NCBI RefSeq assembly: GCF_014696435.1
Contig: NZ_JACJQG010000025.1
Location: 1-64,000, forward strand
DNA: 64,000 nucleotides
Origin: Calothrix anomala FACHB-343
Lineage (GTDB): Bacteria; Cyanobacteriota; Cyanobacteriia; Cyanobacteriales; Nostocaceae
Reading direction: 5' to 3'
The notes under the pieces are model-generated. The model worked only from the letters and a program-made list of their open reading frames with translations. It was not told where the DNA came from and made no database searches. Each line of letters starts with the position of its first letter. The stretch's first letter is position 1. Made by a program: the position numbers and the translations under genes. Below, one piece after another: positions 11,746 through 20,133 of the stretch.

Positions 11746-14445
11746 TTACTCGGCTTCGCCAATTAACGTAAACGCAGACCAATGCAAAGGATTGGTATAT
11801 TTATCTTTTGCTGTTAACATTGCTTTTCGTAATGCTGTAGCTTTGTCAAGACCTTGTTGCAGATTTTGATAAAATTCGGTCATTAAAAATGCTGTAGAAC
11901 CATCATCTACAGCCCAGAGAGAAACCATCACGCTGGGAACACCTGCGCTAATTAAAGAACGAGATAAACCAATTACACCATCCCCAGTAATCCGACCTCT
12001 ACCCGTATCACAAGCACTGAGAACAACTAAATCTGCATTGATTTTCATATCTAAAATTTCTTCCGCATTTAGCAAACCATCATCTTTAGCAGATGGAGTT
12101 AAAGCAATAGCACTTCCCAAACCCCGGTTATCATCCAGTAAGCCATGTGTAGCTAAATGAATATATCGCGCTTGCTGCATTTTTTGCGCGATCGCTGTTT
12201 CTGTTGCCTCACCACCTGTGATAGCTTTAGTTTTGAGTAGAGGTGCGATCGCAATTGCTTCGCGTTCTGCACCCAATAACGGCGGTAACTTGATTGGTTT
12301 TTCTCCTACTTTTAAAGCTACACTCGGCATGGTAGGATTACCGACTACTAAAGCTTCTCCTGTCCCGATTTGCGCTTGCCCATGTTTCAGCTTTTGCTTG
12401 CGTGTTAAATCCAATACCTGAATTGATGGCGCAGTTAAGATAGTGTGCTTTTCAATTAAATATTTATTGTCTGCATCTTGCAGCGCTGGGAAAGGAACCA
12501 AGAACAGGGAACCCTGAGGTATAAATATTACGCGGTCGTTGGGGTTTTTGGGTAGACTGTCTGCGATCGGTTTAATTAATATTTCATGTAATTGCTTTAA
12601 GCGTTGATTTTGGTTAGCTTTATTTACATTATTATCAGCAACAAAGATACCTCTAGCCCGACTGTTAATATCTACCACACCAATAGAAGCGCGAACACTG
12701 TTAACTAATGTAGATAAATCTGTATTTTGCTTTTGCCATAAAGGCTTAAGGTCACTGCGATGAAATGAGACTTCACCTGTAGGTTTAATTACCCAAATAT
12801 ATAGTTCTGAGTCTTCCCATTGTGATTTACCTGCTATTTTGAATTCATCATAAATAATCGAATATTGGACAAGGGTAGCATTTTGTGATTTGGCGATTTG
12901 TTTAATCTCTGCAATTTTTGGTGGGGTGGGGAATTGTTGTTTGGGGTTAGCATATAACCGAGAAGTAAGTAACTCTACAAAAGCACGTCCCCGTCCGCGT
13001 TCGGCTATTTCTAAAGCTGCTTCAGTTTTATTCTGAGCAATGAGGACTTGTTGTAAAGTACGATAGGTGCTACTTTGTTGCTCAAAAATTGAGACCTTCT
13101 CACTATCTTTTAATTCTCGACCTCGCAGAGATTCTAAAACTTTTATGCCTTCAAACAAGGTACTCTCTGCTAAAGTGAGATTGCCTTGTTTGTAGAAAGC
13201 AAGACCGAGATTTCCCAGTGCTTTACCCTCACTATTACGGTCTTTAATTTCTCGTGCGATCGCCAATTTTTGTTGTAGGTACTCAATAGCTTTGGGGTAG
13301 TCTCCCAAGGAAAAGTAGGTAGTACCGAGATTTCCCAGTGCTTTACCTTCTCCTTGACGGTCTTTAATTTCCCGTGCGATCGCCAACTGTTGTTGTAAGT
13401 ACTCAATAGCTTTTTTGTAGTCTCTTAAGGAACCGTAGGTAGTACCGAGATTTCCCAGTGCTGCACCCTCACTTTGACGGTCTTTAATTTCTCGTGCGAT
13501 CGCCAACTGTTGTTGTAGGTACTCAATAGCTTTGGGGTAGTCTCTCAAGGAATAGTAGGCAATACCAAGATTTCCCAGTGCTGCACCCTCACTTTGACGG
13601 TCTTTAATTTCTCGTGCGATCGCCAACAATTGTTGAGAGTACTCAATAGCTTTGGGGTAGTCTCCCAAGGAAAAGTAGGCAATACCGAGATTTCCCAGTG
13701 CTTTACCCTCATTTTGACGGTCTTTAATTTCTCGTGCGATCGCCAACAATTGTTGTTGATACTCAATAGCTTTGGGGTAGTCTCCCAAGGAATAGTAGGT
13801 AAGACCGAGATTTCCCAGTGCTGCACCTTCACTTTGACGGTCTTTGATTTCTCTTGCGATCGCCAATTGTTGTTGTAGGTACTCAATGGCTTTTTTGTAG
13901 TCTCCCAAATCAAGGTAGGCAGCACCGAGACTTCCCAGTGCTTTACTCTCACTATTACGGTCTTTAATTTCTCGTGCGATCGCCAAGGTTTGTTGTAGGT
14001 AATCAATAGCTTTTTTGTAGTCTCCCAAGTTACGGTAGGCAACACCGAGATTTCCCAGTGCTTTACCCTCATTTTGACGGTCTTTAATTTCTCGTGCGAT
14101 CGCCAACAATTGTTGATAGTACTCAATGGCTGTTTTGTAGTCTCCCAAGTTACGGTAGGCAACACCGATATTGCCCAGTGCCCAACTCTCTCCATCACGG
14201 TCTTTGATTTCGCGATAGATAAACAGTGCTTGTTGCCAAGATTCCAATGCTGCTGTAAACTGACTGGTTTCAAACTGCTTAATACCTTGCTGAAACAATC
14301 TATCTGCTTCGGCTTTACGTGCATCTGTTGTTTGTGCCAAAACTCGCGATGCTGTTACCATTGGCAAATTAAAAACAGAAGAAGTAAAAACAATCACTAA
14401 TAAACAAACAAAAATACCAAAGCCACTTTTATAAAAACGCATCAT
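11746..14445 (-). CDS. TPR-CHAT caspase-like protein with signal peptide
   Basis: An 899-residue protein. The N-terminal hydrophobic stretch (FGIFVCLLVIVFTSSVF) ending near VLAQ looks like a signal peptide. About ten TPR repeats with a 40-residue period follow (residues about 45-440, core GNLG.AY.SLGDY.KAIEY), then a C-terminal CHAT domain with catalytic His in YIHLATHGLLDD and catalytic Cys in LSACDTGRG. TPRs should bind partners, and the CHAT domain is a predicted cysteine protease of the caspase clan. The repeats are near-identical at DNA level (120-bp period), each carrying a GCGATCGC site. It lies downstream of a related CHAT gene on the same strand. Confidence 0.93.
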   Translation of the reverse strand: MMRFYKSGFGIFVCLLVIVFTSSVFNLPMVTASRVLAQTTDARKAEADRLFQQGIKQFETSQFTAALESWQQALFIYREIKDRDGESWALGNIGVAYRNLGDYKTAIEYYQQLLAIAREIKDRQNEGKALGNLGVAYRNLGDYKKAIDYLQQTLAIAREIKDRNSESKALGSLGAAYLDLGDYKKAIEYLQQQLAIAREIKDRQSEGAALGNLGLTYYSLGDYPKAIEYQQQLLAIAREIKDRQNEGKALGNLGIAYFSLGDYPKAIEYSQQLLAIAREIKDRQSEGAALGNLGIAYYSLRDYPKAIEYLQQQLAIAREIKDRQSEGAALGNLGTTYGSLRDYKKAIEYLQQQLAIAREIKDRQGEGKALGNLGTTYFSLGDYPKAIEYLQQKLAIAREIKDRNSEGKALGNLGLAFYKQGNLTLAESTLFEGIKVLESLRGRELKDSEKVSIFEQQSSTYRTLQQVLIAQNKTEAALEIAERGRGRAFVELLTSRLYANPKQQFPTPPKIAEIKQIAKSQNATLVQYSIIYDEFKIAGKSQWEDSELYIWVIKPTGEVSFHRSDLKPLWQKQNTDLSTLVNSVRASIGVVDINSRARGIFVADNNVNKANQNQRLKQLHEILIKPIADSLPKNPNDRVIFIPQGSLFLVPFPALQDADNKYLIEKHTILTAPSIQVLDLTRKQKLKHGQAQIGTGEALVVGNPTMPSVALKVGEKPIKLPPLLGAEREAIAIAPLLKTKAITGGEATETAIAQKMQQARYIHLATHGLLDDNRGLGSAIALTPSAKDDGLLNAEEILDMKINADLVVLSACDTGRGRITGDGVIGLSRSLISAGVPSVMVSLWAVDDGSTAFLMTEFYQNLQQGLDKATALRKAMLTAKDKYTNPLHWSAFTLIGEAE
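13190..14230. repeat. 120-bp coding tandem repeats (TPR array) with HIP1 in most units
   Basis: About nine tandem 120-bp units inside the TPR-CHAT gene share long identical stretches such as TTTCCCAGTGCT and TGCGATCGCCAA. Open frames seen on other strands here are a by-product of this periodicity. The uniformity suggests recent duplication or gene conversion. Confidence 0.85.
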
Positions 14446-14525
14446 AAATTATTAATGATGAATTATGAATTATGAAATTAGCAAAAAAAGGCAGAGGAAG
14501 CATAGGAAAATAGCTATTGCCTATA

Positions 14526-14630
14526 TACAGCGAATTGCAAGTTGGTGAGATACAGATAATCGTTAATTGTAGGGGCATTGGCACTGCCATGCCCCGAAGC
14601 GCGTACCTCATTTACCTGAAATATGCTGTA
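14526..14630. repeat. 105-bp TACAGC...GCTGTA element, copy 1
   Basis: Bounded by TACAGC and GCTGTA, with the internal palindrome GGGGCATTGGCACTGCCATGCCCC-like core. A second 105-bp copy lies at 36683-36787, partial copies at 43648-43699, and an inverted partial copy at 53546-53601. It has the properties of a small non-autonomous interspersed element. Confidence 0.7.
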
Positions 14631-14668
14631 TATTCTTCTGCCATCTGCCATCTGCCTCCTGCCTTCTA

Positions 14669-16099
14669 TTACGGCAAACCCACTAATATAAACATCCCCC
14701 AATCTAAAGGGTTAGGATGTTGTTTCATTGTCGCCAACATCGCTTGACGCAAAGCTGCTGCTTTATCAGAATTTTTACTTAAATTTTTATGAAATTCCGT
14801 CATTAATTCCGCCGTTGGTGCATCAGGAATATCGCCCAAAGTTCCGATTACACTATTTGCACCCGCCACAAAAAACGCACGAGATAAGCCAATTACACCA
14901 TCACCTGTGATTTTTCCTAAAGCCGAATCACAAGTACTTAAAACCACCAAATCTGCTTTTAACTTCAGCTTATTAACTTCGCTACTAGTTAACCAACCAT
15001 CATCTTGACTCGAAGGTGTAAACGCCAATAAACCAGGAATTTCTAAAGCTTGTGCTAAAAATCCTGTGGTTGCTAAATGAATCATCCTAGCGTTGGACAT
15101 TTGCTGGACAACATTTGTCTCTGTTGCCGCATCTCCGATTAACGCTTGAGTATTATAGATATTGGCAATACTTTTTGCTTCCTTTTCTGTACCTGGTAGC
15201 GGTGGTAGTTGGTTAAATTTTTCATCCTCATATAAGGGTTTATTAGGTAAGGTAGGATTACCAACTACTAGCACATTTTCATTACCATTGGTATTTGCAG
15301 CGCTGCGTTTTGCTAATAAATCTAGAACTTGAATTGCAGGTACAGTAGAAATTGTATATTTTTCAATTAAATATTTATTATTTTCATCTTGTAGCGCTGC
15401 AAAAGGTACTAAAAATAACTTATCTTGAGGAATAAAAATTACTCTAGAATCTGGATTTTCTGGTAAAAGGTCAGCAATTGGTTGAATTAGTAATTGATGT
15501 AATTGTTTCCAGGTTAAATCAGAATTACTTTGTTTACTTTCTGTAATTTTAATTATCCCTTTATTTAACTCATTTCTCGCCTTACTTGTTGGTTGAATTT
15601 GCTTAATTAAATCTGCTAAACTCCTCTTGCTTTTTTGTTGCCAAGCTTGTAAATCAACTTTACGTAAAGAAATTTCTCCATTCGGCGGAATTACCCAAAT
15701 TACCAATTCTGAATCTTGAGTTTGTCTTTTACCATCAACAGTCACATCCGCCTGTAACAGAGAATATTGCACCAGGGTAGCATTTTGACTTTTAGCTACT
15801 TGCTTAATTTCCTCAACTCTGGGCGTATCTGCATTTTTGGTTGGTAGACTTTGAGCTAATAAATCTACTAAACCTCTTTCCCTTCCGCGTTCAGAAATTT
15901 CTAATGCATCTGTGGGTTGATTTTGTGCAATTAGAGATTTGAGGAGATTTTGAGATATAGGAGTTTGCTTTTTTAATATTGATGTTTGATTAAGATTTTT
16001 TAATGAAACTGGCGCTTTATCTAATGCTATAGTTGAGGCTAAAGGCAATGTCAAGCAAGTAACACAGCTAATAAATACCAGAGCTAATTTGCGTTGCAT
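14669..16099 (-). CDS. CHAT-domain protein lacking TPRs and the catalytic His
   Basis: A 476-residue protein with an N-terminal signal-like segment (LALVFISCVTCLTLPLAS). Only the last pre-CHAT helices remain (ALEISERGRERGLVDLLAQ); the TPR array seen in the neighbouring paralogue is absent. In the CHAT domain the His motif reads MIHLATTGFL instead of HLATHG, so the catalytic His is Thr, while the Cys motif LSTCDSALG is kept. It is predicted to be proteolytically inactive or altered. It lies between a TPR protein gene (upstream) and the TPR-CHAT gene (downstream), all on the minus strand, with gaps of 184 and 223 bp. Confidence 0.88.
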   Translation of the reverse strand: MQRKLALVFISCVTCLTLPLASTIALDKAPVSLKNLNQTSILKKQTPISQNLLKSLIAQNQPTDALEISERGRERGLVDLLAQSLPTKNADTPRVEEIKQVAKSQNATLVQYSLLQADVTVDGKRQTQDSELVIWVIPPNGEISLRKVDLQAWQQKSKRSLADLIKQIQPTSKARNELNKGIIKITESKQSNSDLTWKQLHQLLIQPIADLLPENPDSRVIFIPQDKLFLVPFAALQDENNKYLIEKYTISTVPAIQVLDLLAKRSAANTNGNENVLVVGNPTLPNKPLYEDEKFNQLPPLPGTEKEAKSIANIYNTQALIGDAATETNVVQQMSNARMIHLATTGFLAQALEIPGLLAFTPSSQDDGWLTSSEVNKLKLKADLVVLSTCDSALGKITGDGVIGLSRAFFVAGANSVIGTLGDIPDAPTAELMTEFHKNLSKNSDKAAALRQAMLATMKQHPNPLDWGMFILVGLP

Positions 16100-16787: not shown

Positions 16788-17547
16788 TTCTACTTCTCCA
16801 ATAAGATAAATGACAAACAGTCGTGAAAATTGCTAGTAGAGACAACGTGACATTGGCTGCGTTAGTTATGCAAAACCTTGGTTTTGGTTGTCTCACTGCT
16901 CTATAGTTCTGAGCTAGTAGAACTTATGCAGTTTGAAAAAGTGAAGCAATTTTCCTTTGCTGTTTGTCTATATCTTTAGGAGTGAGGGGGTTATTTGACA
17001 TACTCCCCAGCCTAAAGGCGTGGGGATTCTGGGTTCAAACAACAGTTGCAGGCATAGCCCGTCTTACACTATCTCGCCCGACAGACAATGCCCTGCCTGT
17101 TTCCACAATTCTATCAACAAGCCGTCCTTAAAGCGGCGCACTGAGAGCTACACCCGAAGTGGACGGGGCTTTAAACCCAGGTTTTTGGTAAAAAATTGGG
17201 TATAGGGAAGCCGTGACGGGTAAGCAGGAGTCTCCCCAAGTATCTGAATCTTGCATTTGTACCCTTATACCAATTCTCCAAAATGCAGCAACAGATCCCA
17301 GATCAAAAACCCTTGCTATATATGGCTTTCTTAATTTTGAATTTTGAATTTTGAATTTTGAATTGGTATTAAAGGGTGTAGGTGCAAGATATTAAATGGG
17401 AAACTTTTGCGCCGGATTAACCAAGAAACTGCCAAAGCACTCTATCAAATAGCGCTTTCACGTTTTAAATAGTATTTTTGCGGAATCGCCATTTTTACAT
17501 TTGTAGGTTTGGGAAGAATTACGTACATAAGTAGCAAATGTAAAAAA
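16788..17547. other. 760-bp gap with transposon end remnant and tandem repeats
   Basis: No supported gene. It holds a remnant of an IS200/IS605-family right end at about 16998-17230, then GAATTTT heptamers at about 17333-17366, then the leader of the small RHH gene. Confidence 0.6.
16998..17230 (-). mobile_element. Solo right-end remnant of an IS200/IS605 (TnpB) element
   Basis: ACTCCCCAGCCTAAAGGCGT at 17002 onward is the exact reverse complement of the hairpin that ends the intact TnpB element near 38615-38645. About 200 bp beyond it, on the minus strand, resembles a structured tnpB 3' region, with GTCCACTTCGGGTGTAGCTC and the inverted GTCCTTAAAGCGG segment. No tnpB frame is left. It may be a deletion derivative or a stand-alone guide-RNA (omega RNA) locus; the exact left boundary is uncertain. 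Confidence 0.5.
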
Positions 17548-17700
17548 ATGCATATTAGCATCACGGATGACTTGAAGAAGCGATTTCATGCCAGCTGCGT
17601 TATGCGGGGTAAAAATATGAGCCAAGTAGTCATTGAGCTAATCGAGCAATGGCTGGAAAGCAACGAGGTTCACCAAGCAGGGGAGATAAAGAGACTATAG
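17548..17700 (+). CDS. Small ribbon-helix-helix (RHH) protein
   Basis: A 50-residue protein starting MHISITDDLKKRFHASC, followed by GKNMSQVVIELIEQWLES. This is the beta-strand, helix, helix pattern of a MetJ/Arc (ParG-like) DNA-binding dimer. A TTG at 17509 would extend it by 13 residues, but the ATG at 17548 fits the fold boundary. It lies 84 bp upstream of the CHAT-EAD gene on the same strand, so it is a candidate regulator of that module. That link is inference. Confidence 0.65.
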   Translation: MHISITDDLKKRFHASCVMRGKNMSQVVIELIEQWLESNEVHQAGEIKRL

Positions 17701-17784
17701 CAGTAAACGAAATTGGATGGTCTGGCTACTGCTAAAACCAGTTCTGAGAAACCTTATCAAATTACATAAATGGAGTTTAAGTAA

Positions 17785-18711
17785 ATGGTACAAACAATCT
17801 TAATTTTGACAGCAAATCCTCAAGGTACTTCACAACTACGTTTAGATCAGGAAGTGCGAGATATTGAAGAAGGACTACAGCGAGCAAAGCAACGCGATCA
17901 GTTTATCTTAGAACAGAAGTGGGCAGTGCGACCGAGAGACATCCAGAGAGCAATGCTGGATATCAATCCTTCTATTATTCATTTTTCTGGCCATGGCACA
18001 GGGGATGAGGGTTTAGTATTTGAAGATGAAACAGGTTCAGCAAAGCTAGTTGATGGCGAAGCCTTAGCGGGATTGTTTGAACTGTTTGCAGAGCAAGTTG
18101 AGTGTGTTGTTCTCAATGGCTGTTATTCGGAAGTGCAAGCAGAAGCGATCGCACAACATGTTAATTATGTAATTGGTATGAAAAAGGCGATCCCAGATAA
18201 AGCAGCAATTGAATTTGCTGTAGGTTTTTACGATGCTTTAGGTGCAGGAAAGCCCGTTGAATTTGCCCACAAATTTGGTTGTGCTGCAATTCGGTTAGCA
18301 GGTATTCCAGAGCAACTCACCCCAGTTCTCAAGAAGAAGCCAAATATTAATGAGAAGGAAAATTTACCTCTAAAGCAGCTTTCAGTCACCAATGAACCAG
18401 CATCAGAGACATCTCAAGAACTCACCGATTCTGACAGGGAAATACTTACAGAACTCTTGATACGTAGTGGACGTGCAGAATATTCGGCACGAAAAGCACT
18501 TTGTATAAAAATTGGAATTGAAGCCAATCAACTTGGATTTTTAAGACAATCAACCGATGCTGACTTTGCTTTAGAGTTAATTAGCTATTTGCATGATACA
18601 GATAACAAAAAAGCTCTTTGCCAAATCTGCAAAGAACTTGAAGTTGTGTTTAAAACAGGGAAATACGCAGCTAATTTAGAAAGTATTAAATCAAAATTAA
18701 ATTATAAATAG
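17785..18711 (+). CDS. CHAT protease with C-terminal effector-associated domain (EAD)
   Basis: A 308-residue cytoplasmic protein. Residues 1 to about 175 are a compact CHAT domain with catalytic His70 in IIHFSGHGTGDEG and Cys113 in VVLNGCYSE, both present. After a linker (about 176-215), residues about 218-305 form a small helical domain with KALCIKIGI, GFLRQSTDADF and ALCQIC. Much the same domain opens the next gene's product. In bacterial conflict systems such effector-associated domains tether effectors to partners by homotypic contact. GGAG lies about ten bases before the ATG. The next gene starts 24 bp downstream, so the two are very likely co-transcribed. Confidence 0.88.
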   Translation: MVQTILILTANPQGTSQLRLDQEVRDIEEGLQRAKQRDQFILEQKWAVRPRDIQRAMLDINPSIIHFSGHGTGDEGLVFEDETGSAKLVDGEALAGLFELFAEQVECVVLNGCYSEVQAEAIAQHVNYVIGMKKAIPDKAAIEFAVGFYDALGAGKPVEFAHKFGCAAIRLAGIPEQLTPVLKKKPNINEKENLPLKQLSVTNEPASETSQELTDSDREILTELLIRSGRAEYSARKALCIKIGIEANQLGFLRQSTDADFALELISYLHDTDNKKALCQICKELEVVFKTGKYAANLESIKSKLNYK

Positions 18712-18735
18712 TGTAAAAAGTGAGATGAAAATATT

Positions 18736-19725
18736 ATGGCTCCAAATTATTTACAAGAATCTGATATAGAAACATTAGCAAACTTATTGTTACGTAGCCA
18801 ACAATCAAGAACAAGAGAAGCACTATGTATAAGAATTGGAATCGATCCCCAGCGAATCGGATTTATAAGAGATTCTTCAGATGCTGACTTTGTTACACAA
18901 CTAATTTACTATTTAGATAATGTAGGCGATCAAGAAGCTCTTTGTAAGCTTTGTTGCCAGGAATTATTTCCTATATTTAATAAATCAACATATAGAGCCA
19001 TCTTAGAAGAGATTGCAGTAAAACTAACTTGTAATCATGACTGTGTAAAGAATTCTCCAGATTATAAAACATTAAAACAGTCAAGTTCTCTCAAGCCAAA
19101 TCTCGTTCCTGAATTCGCAGCCAATTACCCTAATCAACTAGATAAATCAAAACCTGAATCACTGTTTATAAAAATCGGTAACGTTAACAAAAAGTTACTT
19201 ATAAGTGGTGTAATACTTCTATTAGGTCTAGGAGGGTTTGCACTACATGAGGAAATCAGCCAAACTGTTGTAGATCCCAAATATAATGCCTTAACGGAAT
19301 TTCTCAAAGCAAGAAAGTGGGAAGAGGCTGATGGCGAAACAGCTACAATCACTCGCAACATAATTGGAAAAGACAAAGCTCATCCACTCTATATTAATGA
19401 TCTCAAAACTTTTCCTTGCACTGATCTACGTAACATAGAACAACTATGGCTAAAGTATAGTGACAAACGCTTTGGCTTTAGCAAGCAGAAGCAAATCATT
19501 AGCAATTTAGTTATCACACAAACGGAACAACAGAAAAAAGAAGACTATGCCTGGAAAGAATTTTCAAACCAAGTTGGTTGGTATAGGGTTATTTCCAAGC
19601 AGAATGCCCCCGACGGGCATTTTCCGGCAATAGGAACTTGGTGGAATGCGTATGAACCAGGGTGGTTGGAGGCGCTTTTCTCGCGTATCGATGCTTGTAA
19701 CGCAGATAAGGATCGCAATCCCTAG
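18736..19725 (+). CDS. EAD - transmembrane - GUN4-domain protein
   Basis: A 329-residue protein of three parts. Residues about 8-98 are an EAD-like domain closely related to the C-terminus of the upstream CHAT protein (ALCIRIGI, GFIRDSSDADF, ALCKLC). A linker leads to one membrane helix at about 153-170 (LLISGVILLLGLGGFALH). Residues about 183-300 are a GUN4-type domain: YNALTEFLKARKWEEADGET, FPCTDL, IEQLWLKYSDKRFGFS and QVGWYR. GUN4 domains bind porphyrins and, in the classical protein, activate Mg-chelatase H. Here the domain is anchored to the membrane and paired with a protease. Its stop codon overlaps the start of a GTAGGTTGGGT repeat. Confidence 0.85.
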   Translation: MAPNYLQESDIETLANLLLRSQQSRTREALCIRIGIDPQRIGFIRDSSDADFVTQLIYYLDNVGDQEALCKLCCQELFPIFNKSTYRAILEEIAVKLTCNHDCVKNSPDYKTLKQSSSLKPNLVPEFAANYPNQLDKSKPESLFIKIGNVNKKLLISGVILLLGLGGFALHEEISQTVVDPKYNALTEFLKARKWEEADGETATITRNIIGKDKAHPLYINDLKTFPCTDLRNIEQLWLKYSDKRFGFSKQKQIISNLVITQTEQQKKEDYAWKEFSNQVGWYRVISKQNAPDGHFPAIGTWWNAYEPGWLEALFSRIDACNADKDRNP

Positions 19726-20133
19726 TAGGTTGGGTGTAACGTAGCTTGCTTCCCTCAAACATCGAGTTTGCGTAATTGTTCCACTAACTCATTAGATACC
19801 ATTGTTAACCTTAGCTTTGAATAATTTAATATCAGGTTAAAGAATAGCTTTATTTAATATCAAAAATATAACGATATTTCATCATGATCTGGAACAAAAA
19901 ATTGGCATGTATCATCTCTTCAGAGAATAAGATGACTACTGTCTCAAAGACACCCAACATTTATTAATGCGATCGCAAAAACCATGTCGGGAGTCGCAAA
20001 AATAGCTTTTGATACTACAATTGCTATTTCGGGCATCGCCAAAATAGCTTTTGAGACAAAAATTGCTATTTTGGCGATGTCTACAGCAATTGATACCTAC
20101 CGAAAATATCTAGCTTGCAGTTCCGACTCAATT
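19725..20133. other. Convergent gap with half foldback and tandem hairpins
   Basis: No gene. It begins with a half copy of the GTAGGTTGGGT foldback at the GUN4 gene's stop codon. An AT-rich stretch follows, then two related hairpin units at about 19987-20034 and 20034-20079 before the stop codon of the ChlH-like gene. Confidence 0.6.
20034..20079. terminator. Strong hairpin between convergent genes
   Basis: Perfect 15-bp inverted repeat CATCGCCAAAATAGC/GCTATTTTGGCGATG with a 16-base loop that can pair partly. A degenerate copy of the unit precedes it. Its place between the convergent GUN4-type and ChlH-like genes suits a bidirectional terminator, but there is no clean T-tract. Confidence 0.5.

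Follow-up and report, generated by a model that had tools for sequence, protein, structure and literature searches.

The window analysed here, i.e., the stretch of 64,000 nucleotides comprising positions 1 to 64,000 of contig NZ_JACJQG010000025.1 from Calothrix anomala FACHB-343, contains two adjacent genes that form a cassette and have an adaptor in common, an effector-associated domain (EAD). The first gene (17785..18711, + strand, 308 aa) codes for a CHAT protein with the protease domain at about residues 1-187 and the adaptor at its C-terminus. The second gene (18736..19725, + strand, 329 aa) follows after 24 bp and codes for a protein (EAD-TM-GUN4) with an N-terminal adaptor, one predicted transmembrane (TM) helix at residues 154-172 (19195..19251, +), placed by hydropathy, and a C-terminal GUN4-fold domain (19273..19644, +). 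This architecture had been proposed from the letters alone in a first-pass annotation, and both open reading frames (ORFs), the CHAT domain with intact His70/Cys113, and a hydrophobic segment followed by GUN4 could be confirmed. In particular, the Pfam CHAT family matches the first protein at E 6.9e-10 (39.3 bits against a cut-off of 24), the Pfam GUN4 family matches the second at E 2.9e-26 (92.7 bits against 29.2), and one hydrophobic segment of the latter lies at residues 154-172. His70 and Cys113 are kept in all 20 intact CHAT-EAD proteins aligned, the one of the window included, while the 21st row of this alignment, the split gene of locus L152, has a gap at both positions. With the Pfam cut-off exceeded and the catalytic His and Cys retained, the first protein is predicted to be a CHAT protease, and the only solved chain matching it is that of SAVED-CHAT (8tl0, E 7.9e-15).

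The adaptor spans residues 211-308 of the protease (18415..18708, +; structure model and EAD8 profile match) and residues 5-100 of the membrane protein (18748..19035, +; alignment to the protease copy). Both copies are clearly homologous, with 43 identities in 94 positions (46%, E 3e-26) and with the motifs by which the first-pass annotation had recognised them. Its assignment of the shared domain to the EADs was likewise borne out by profile-profile comparison, as hhalign joins the adaptor with EAD8 at 94.8% (E 5.3e-8 for this single comparison) over 72 columns and thus across most of the domain, as compared to at most 2.4% in all 23 controls (20 column-shuffles, reversed EAD8, reversed EAD1, and CHAT). 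EAD1 itself reaches 0.4% and was rejected as the closest relative, as was EAD7, whose Pfam profile touches only one of the 26 members and which was present in only one of 30 genomes. The curated cut-off of EAD8 (Pfam PF19961) is not reached by any of the 26 members, five of which show weak matches (best E 0.0046), and in the Calothrix genome the EAD8 profile matches five other places, the cassette pair not being among them. The true EAD8 proteins of this genome sit on other contigs (C73, C55), with a cluster of four such domains at G000:C73:75107-80417 (L064-L067; here and below, G, C and L denote genomes, contigs and loci) representing a separate EAD system. In turn, a two-row adaptor profile finds only the two copies of the cassette in the own genome at E <= 10, although a very divergent third copy could be overlooked by such a profile. 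A structure model of the protease copy (pLDDT 91.3, pTM 0.84) consists of five helices, and structure alignment places CARD, Death and Pyrin domains closest, at a low Z of 5.6 with unrelated proteins next at 4.7; the best match of the adaptor profile among the sequences of solved structures has an E of only 0.18. Judged from profiles and model, the adaptor is an all-helical, EAD8-like effector-associated domain, and it possibly belongs to the class of the six-helix death fold.

With respect to the distribution of the cassette, 26 distinct adaptor loci were obtained from 28 listed ones after removal of two copies (L099 = L048 and L101 = L045); locus L207 of genome G580 stands outside this set. 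In twenty of them, an intact CHAT-EAD gene precedes, on the same strand, a gene coding for the adaptor and a further domain (EAD-X), and one more (L152) has the same layout with a split CHAT gene. The remaining loci comprise a trypsin-EAD/EAD-X pair (L051) and four incomplete ones (L047, L049, L050, L053). In the 21 loci with CHAT-EAD and EAD-X, the distance between the two genes ranges from -1 to 440 bp. The same domain is therefore found in adjacent genes with one copy on an effector or signalling enzyme. Of the recurrence on which the first-pass annotation had made its proposal depend, the CHAT-EAD/EAD-X pair is indeed conserved in other genomes, whereas only four of the 24 partners have GUN4.

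Adaptor-only searches gave 19 of these loci including the window (14 intact CHAT-EAD/EAD-X, one trypsin-EAD/EAD-X and four incomplete), the others coming from a scan of named genomes in which the best 80 of at least 546 confirmed CHAT relatives were considered; the CHAT-EAD alignment served as the query, the bare adaptor alignment being too variable. By these searches, genomes with the adaptor number 13 of 99 in the relatives sample, 5 of 386 in the phylum sample, which include a chance-like partial match in G372 (E 8e-4), and 4 of 291 in the order sample, each tally counting the own genome of the window. In the two large samples at most 13 (phylum) or 17 (order) candidates were scored per genome, and presence may thus be undercounted there. 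Clear matches are confined to one order, and mostly to one family, in the samples searched, the organisms including Plectonema radiosum, Brasilonema, Scytonema, Iningainema, Nostoc, Mastigocoleus and Rhizonema. A lone CHAT-EAD-type ORF (L211/L207 in G580) comes from another family of the same order, and the N-terminus of a nearby gene resembles by eye a more divergent adaptor copy.

Deviating arrangements were observed in single loci. In L051 (G025) a trypsin-like peptidase (Trypsin_2, E 4.9e-14) carrying the same adaptor takes the place of CHAT, and its gene overlaps an ORF with an adaptor and a P-loop of the NACHT type. In L045 (G058) the CHAT-EAD gene is followed by genes for EAD-iSTAND, an AAA ATPase and a WD40 protein, and the adaptor is thus part of a ternary-type system; a copy on such a core component is found in this relative but not in the genome of the window. 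In L054 a cassette of the CHASE2 type is followed by DUF928 and TPR-CHAT genes.

The two adaptors of a locus are more similar to each other than to those of other loci, with a mean identity of 0.512 as compared to 0.435 for shuffled partners across 22 loci, a value reached in none of 10,000 shuffles, and the correlation between the distance matrices of both adaptors is 0.756. This matching is weak within 13 close loci (226 of 10,000 shuffles), and in only 4 of the 22 loci is no other adaptor as close as the own partner. Because the copies match within loci, the two proteins of a pair are likely to bind one another, and the homotypic pairing suggested in the first-pass annotation is accordingly regarded as likely on this comparative basis. 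In a tree of the adaptors, the N-terminal adaptors of the receptor type form one clade, whereas the loci with CHASE2 or with coiled-coil-linked GUN4 form another one which holds both of their copies; those of L045 group as sisters. The tree has long branches for L051_N, L051_C and L044_N, and the adaptor of L152 stems from one ORF piece of the split gene. A recent duplication of the adaptor inside the locus of the window was rejected, the two copies lying in different clades. Carriers of GUN4 occur in at least three separate parts of the tree, and GUN4 has therefore probably been joined or lost more than once.

In contrast to the protease, the C-terminal part of the partner varies strongly. 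All 210 pairs among the 21 adaptor-bearing proteases (20 CHAT-EAD and one trypsin-EAD) are alike at E < 1e-3. Among the 24 partners of at least 200 residues, a limit that excludes the 144-aa partner of L043, likeness by the same threshold is seen in 272 of 276 pairs of N-terminal adaptors but in only 20 of 276 pairs of C-terminal regions. The latter fall into 13 clusters, which may be 14 as the link between L042 and L098 is weak (E 1.3e-5). Four partners carry GUN4 according to Pfam (window, L097, L059, L056), and the other domains above the Pfam cut-off are CHASE2 (L052, L054, L055, L162, L171), TPR (L042) and iSTAND (L045). Matches below the cut-off point to CVNH (L048, L050), a ricin-type lectin (L048) and DUF4214 (L047), and Pfam names no domain in the partners of L098, L058 and L152. 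The exchange is apparent even at short distance: of eight loci whose CHAT-EAD protein is 78-84% identical to that of the window, only L097 has GUN4.

A hydrophobic segment follows soon after the adaptor in 21 of the 24 partners, with a mean hydropathy of at least 1.6 in 16 and of 1.47-1.57 in five of them, and lysines and arginines are more numerous before than after this segment in 15 of the 21, equal in four and fewer in two. In the window, the helix has a mean hydropathy of 1.86 over 19 residues, with three K/R and no D/E before it and one K/R and three D/E after it. These flanking charges suggest that the adaptor of the window protein is cytoplasmic and its GUN4 domain outside. Provided that adaptor and soluble CHAT-EAD protein have to come into contact, a location of the variable domain outside the cytoplasm would be expected, and the lectin-like and CHASE2 domains of other partners fit such a location. 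The domains named by Pfam behind the hydrophobic segment, with CHASE2, GUN4 and TPR above and CVNH and ricin-type lectin just below the cut-off, are of a sensing or binding kind.

As to GUN4 itself, the domain of the window has the GUN4 fold and is a member of the Pfam family, but it does not retain the full residue set known for tetrapyrrole binding (W192, F196 and LxNxLR with N211 and R214). In an alignment to Synechocystis GUN4 anchored on AP-GH-P, F196 is replaced by V, L209 by A, N211 by G, L213 by W and R214 by W; the LxNxLR motif is lost, the loop preceding the lost residues is shortened, and the position of W192 is ambiguous. Paralogues of GUN4 without Asn211 have already been reported (PMC10156173), and the own genome has ten GUN4 matches. 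Since the known tetrapyrrole-binding residues are missing, the domain probably recognises something else, e.g., a protein, which would suggest that GUN4 domains are reused as generic modules once the residues known to contact the pigment have been lost. A PADLOC label of PD-T4-6 (E 1.5e-26) was rejected, as it covers only profile positions 304-448 of 450 against residues 176-322, i.e., the GUN4 part of the protein. The final third of this profile thus matches GUN4, and GUN4 proteins could be mislabelled as PD-T4-6.

The cassette resides on a segment of 2,877 bp (17256..20132, without strand) that corresponds to 126 bp in G001, the closest genome of the same genus, where the matches to window positions 17188-17255 and 20133 onwards lie 126 bp apart (comparison on one strand). 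In eight other genomes of the genus, compared on one strand by matches that span 80 bases or more (E <= 1e-10), chlH is always present and never has the cassette beside it; seven of these genomes lack the adaptor and the eighth carries it on another contig. The neighbouring chlH was therefore rejected as a functional link. In Tolypothrix sp. PCC 7910, a CHAT-EAD/EAD-GUN4 pair is encoded next to relaxase genes by a mobilizable plasmid of 38.9 kb. The plasmid records searched contained one matching record, and no adaptor match was found in the phage records.

Upstream of the protease gene lies an ORF for a ParG-like ribbon-helix-helix (RHH) protein (17509..17700, +; Pfam ParG, E 7e-7), possibly starting at an internal ATG at 17548, which is absent from the module as described in the first-pass annotation. 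Homologues are found directly upstream of CHAT-EAD in five other loci (L096, L046, L042, L097, L098; phmmer, E <= 1.2e-16) and, more weakly, in L050 and L058, but in none of the other 18 of the 26 loci at tblastn E <= 0.01, some of which hold little upstream DNA. The RHH protein may autoregulate one branch of the cassettes. Other features of the surroundings are a perfect 15-nt inverted repeat at 20034-20079, where the GUN4 and chlH genes converge, which may be a bidirectional terminator or a small repeat, a short tandem repeat of ATTTTGA at 17334-17373 in the upstream region of the cassette, and, just before the cassette, a 193-bp segment (16995-17187) which is not found in G001 and opens with a hairpin-like ACTCCCC...GGGGAT motif, presumably reminiscent of the ends of IS200/IS605 elements. 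A scan for promoters and terminators gave nothing above shuffles. Two further CHAT genes at 11746-16099 (- strand), coding for a TPR-CHAT protein of 899 aa and a CHAT protein of 476 aa, are common to the window and G001, unlike the cassette.

Comparable pairings seem to exist with other adaptors. The fetched loci contain 68 CHAT tails or heads that are devoid of this EAD; a second gene of the locus codes for a homologue in 24 cases, not all of them being adaptor-like, and in 44 cases there is none. In particular, 6 of 13 CHAT-TIR loci (L104, L106, L110, L155, L158, L175) have a Toll-like layout in which CHAT-TIR stands beside a TIR protein with a hydrophobic segment followed by CHASE2 (three loci) or another domain (three loci), the other seven being without a TIR-TM partner. 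In L142, L144, L151 and L137, CHAT is fused to an AAA_35 ATPase and a distant homologue of the tail is found in another gene of the locus; the partner in L142, the only one scanned, has WD40 repeats. This group is a possible third pairing class.

Taken together, these observations are best read as a minimal death-receptor-like cassette of two genes or, in some loci, of three including the RHH gene, in which a receptor would act through a homotypic adaptor on a caspase-like protease. To this interpretation of the predicted proteins we assign a probability of about one half. The C-terminal domain would face the periplasm and sense a ligand or a disturbance of the envelope; the ligand would drive clustering of the membrane protein, the gathered adaptors would recruit and oligomerise CHAT-EAD by homotypic contact, and proximity would switch the protease on. 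The active protease would then cleave host or partner proteins, resulting in growth stop or cell death as a form of defence or programmed death, and the RHH protein might repress the operon. Recruitment and oligomerisation of CHAT by receptor clustering are proposed because the protease is constant, the adaptors are matched, and the exchanged partner domains are mostly membrane-borne. The patchy presence, the strain-variable segment and the related pair on a mobilizable plasmid were also counted in favour. The cassette probably has a role in defence or self-killing, and a suicide outcome, as envisaged in the first-pass annotation, is plausible. There are, on the other hand, findings that speak against a death-receptor-like cassette: GUN4 would be unusual outside the cytoplasm, in L056 it is joined through a coiled coil without any hydrophobic segment, and part of the matching within loci could come from linkage alone. 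A more far-reaching version, to which we give somewhat less than an even chance, holds that filamentous cyanobacteria possess true bacterial death receptors, i.e., single-pass proteins whose adaptor, inside, has the death fold and whose freely swapped recognition domain (GUN4-fold, CHASE2, lectin-like and others) lies outside, and which activate a separate caspase-like CHAT protease homotypically, with the parallel TIR-adaptor class having the layout of Toll receptors.

The main rival of such a sensor is that the membrane protein is instead a substrate or effector, with CHAT-EAD docking via its EAD, cutting its partner and thereby releasing a C- or N-terminal part that acts. In CRISPR systems, proteases of the CHAT type have dedicated partners as their substrates. 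EADs such as EAD8 have been described as recruiters of effectors (PMC7159879). However, the partner domains that Pfam names behind the membrane segment include no effector enzyme, several partners being unnamed, and 13 unlike C-terminal clusters would require a cut site outside them, which makes this explanation unlikely. Alternatively, the pair might be a plug-in of the known ternary EAD conflict systems (VMAP/iSTAND/STAND) whose core machinery resides elsewhere in the genome. The row of EAD-iSTAND, AAA ATPase and WD40 genes in L045 and the trypsin-EAD gene with a NACHT-type fragment in L051 would fit such a connection, as would the published case in which EAD8 couples STAND proteins to a protease of the trypsin type (PMC10907252); yet no third adaptor copy was found in the genome at E <= 10 by the two-row profile, and its true EAD8 proteins lie on other contigs and belong to a profile that misses the cassette pair. 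This possibility is accordingly considered even less likely than a substrate role.

An ordinary physiological function in, e.g., development or envelope homeostasis instead of defence or death would suit the restriction of clear matches to one order, and mostly one family, in the searched samples, and CHASE2 is a general sensor domain. As patchiness, plasmid carriage, decayed copies and domain exchange are typical of conflict genes, we regard such a function as improbable. The least credible explanation follows the original working idea of a porphyrin or stress trigger, with GUN4 setting off the protease upon sensing a porphyrin, a bilin or stress of photosynthesis. A role of GUN4 as porphyrin sensor can hardly be maintained, since it represents only one of 13 C-terminal clusters and has lost residues reported to be required for porphyrin or bilin binding (Phe196, Asn211, Arg214 and LxNxLR, together with a shortened preceding loop). 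In addition, reported paralogues without Asn211 (PMC10156173), the 20 of 24 partners without GUN4, and the eight of eight genomes of the genus that have chlH without the cassette beside it all argue against it.

Compared with known systems, the coupling of proteins by EADs, the presence of GUN4 in such systems and the coupling of EAD8 to a protease are already published (PMC7159879, PMC10907252). The first-pass annotation had known of no described system in which a membrane-tethered GUN4 serves as sensor or regulator of a caspase-like protease, a statement that is not supported in view of GUN4 in EAD conflict systems (PMC7159879) and of published GUN4-metacaspase fusions (PMC2853523, PMC8283722). 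As described by Kaur et al. 2020 (PMC7159879), who proposed a tetrapyrrole-sensing role for GUN4 in cyanobacterial EAD conflict systems, EADs are small, non-enzymatic and mostly helical domains in adjacent genes, joined to effector or signalling domains including peptidases, with adjacent copies being closer to each other, all of which applies to the cassette as well. There, however, one copy resides on a core component (VMAP, iSTAND, Ubl, GAP1), whereas for the window the genome search gave no further member beside the pair, it is the CHAT protein that stays constant, and most partners are predicted membrane proteins whose C-terminus is exchanged. By whole-word search, neither 'CHASE2' nor 'CHAT' occurs in the main text of that paper, which leaves its figures and supplements aside. 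A swappable layout of CHAT-adaptor and adaptor-TM-sensor was not found in searches of the open-licence literature, the figures and supplements of the Kaur papers, which list gene neighbourhoods, lying outside this scope.

The EACC1/EACC2 systems (Kaur et al. 2021, PMC8195603) also have two genes, a caspase domain and a variable C-terminus that may comprise a TM segment and CHASE2, but there the caspase and the variable part are united in a protein that has an EACC2 domain, its partner being a TRADD-N protein; in the cassette, protease and variable sensor are separate and have a homotypic adaptor in common. At the DGR 6 locus of Thiohalocapsa PB-PSB1 (PMC10907252), EAD8 is thought to join sensors homotypically with a nearby protease, the differences being STAND NTPases as sensors, a trypsin-like protease and targets predicted to be cytoplasmic. 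SAVED-CHAT (8tl0), the only solved relative of the CHAT protein, has its sensor, the nucleotide-ligand domain SAVED, fused in cis and no adaptor pair (PMC11417357), and its stacked SAVED domains served as the template for a modelled cA4-induced oligomer of another protease (PMC11417357). Finally, the metacaspase/orthocaspase-GUN4 fusions of cyanobacteria also link a caspase-fold protease with GUN4, but the protease is a Peptidase C14, the fusion is in cis, and no EAD pair is described for them in the passages covered (PMC2853523, PMC8283722).

If the more far-reaching version is true, the wiring of the extrinsic death pathway of animals would exist in bacteria as a mobile, ectodomain-swapping cassette. 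A cassette with a strain-variable receptor end and a constant protease would be a testable bacterial counterpart of death-receptor signalling, and the natural swaps, in which the same protease is combined with 13 partner clusters, constitute a resource for finding the target of each sensor. In animal death receptors such as Fas, which acts with FADD and caspase-8, a receptor is connected via a membrane helix to a death-fold adaptor that is joined to an adaptor-bearing protease. Although no sequence homology was detected, and the likeness stems from the layout of a cassette whose function is predicted, both follow the same logic and, according to the structure model, possibly employ the same class of fold.

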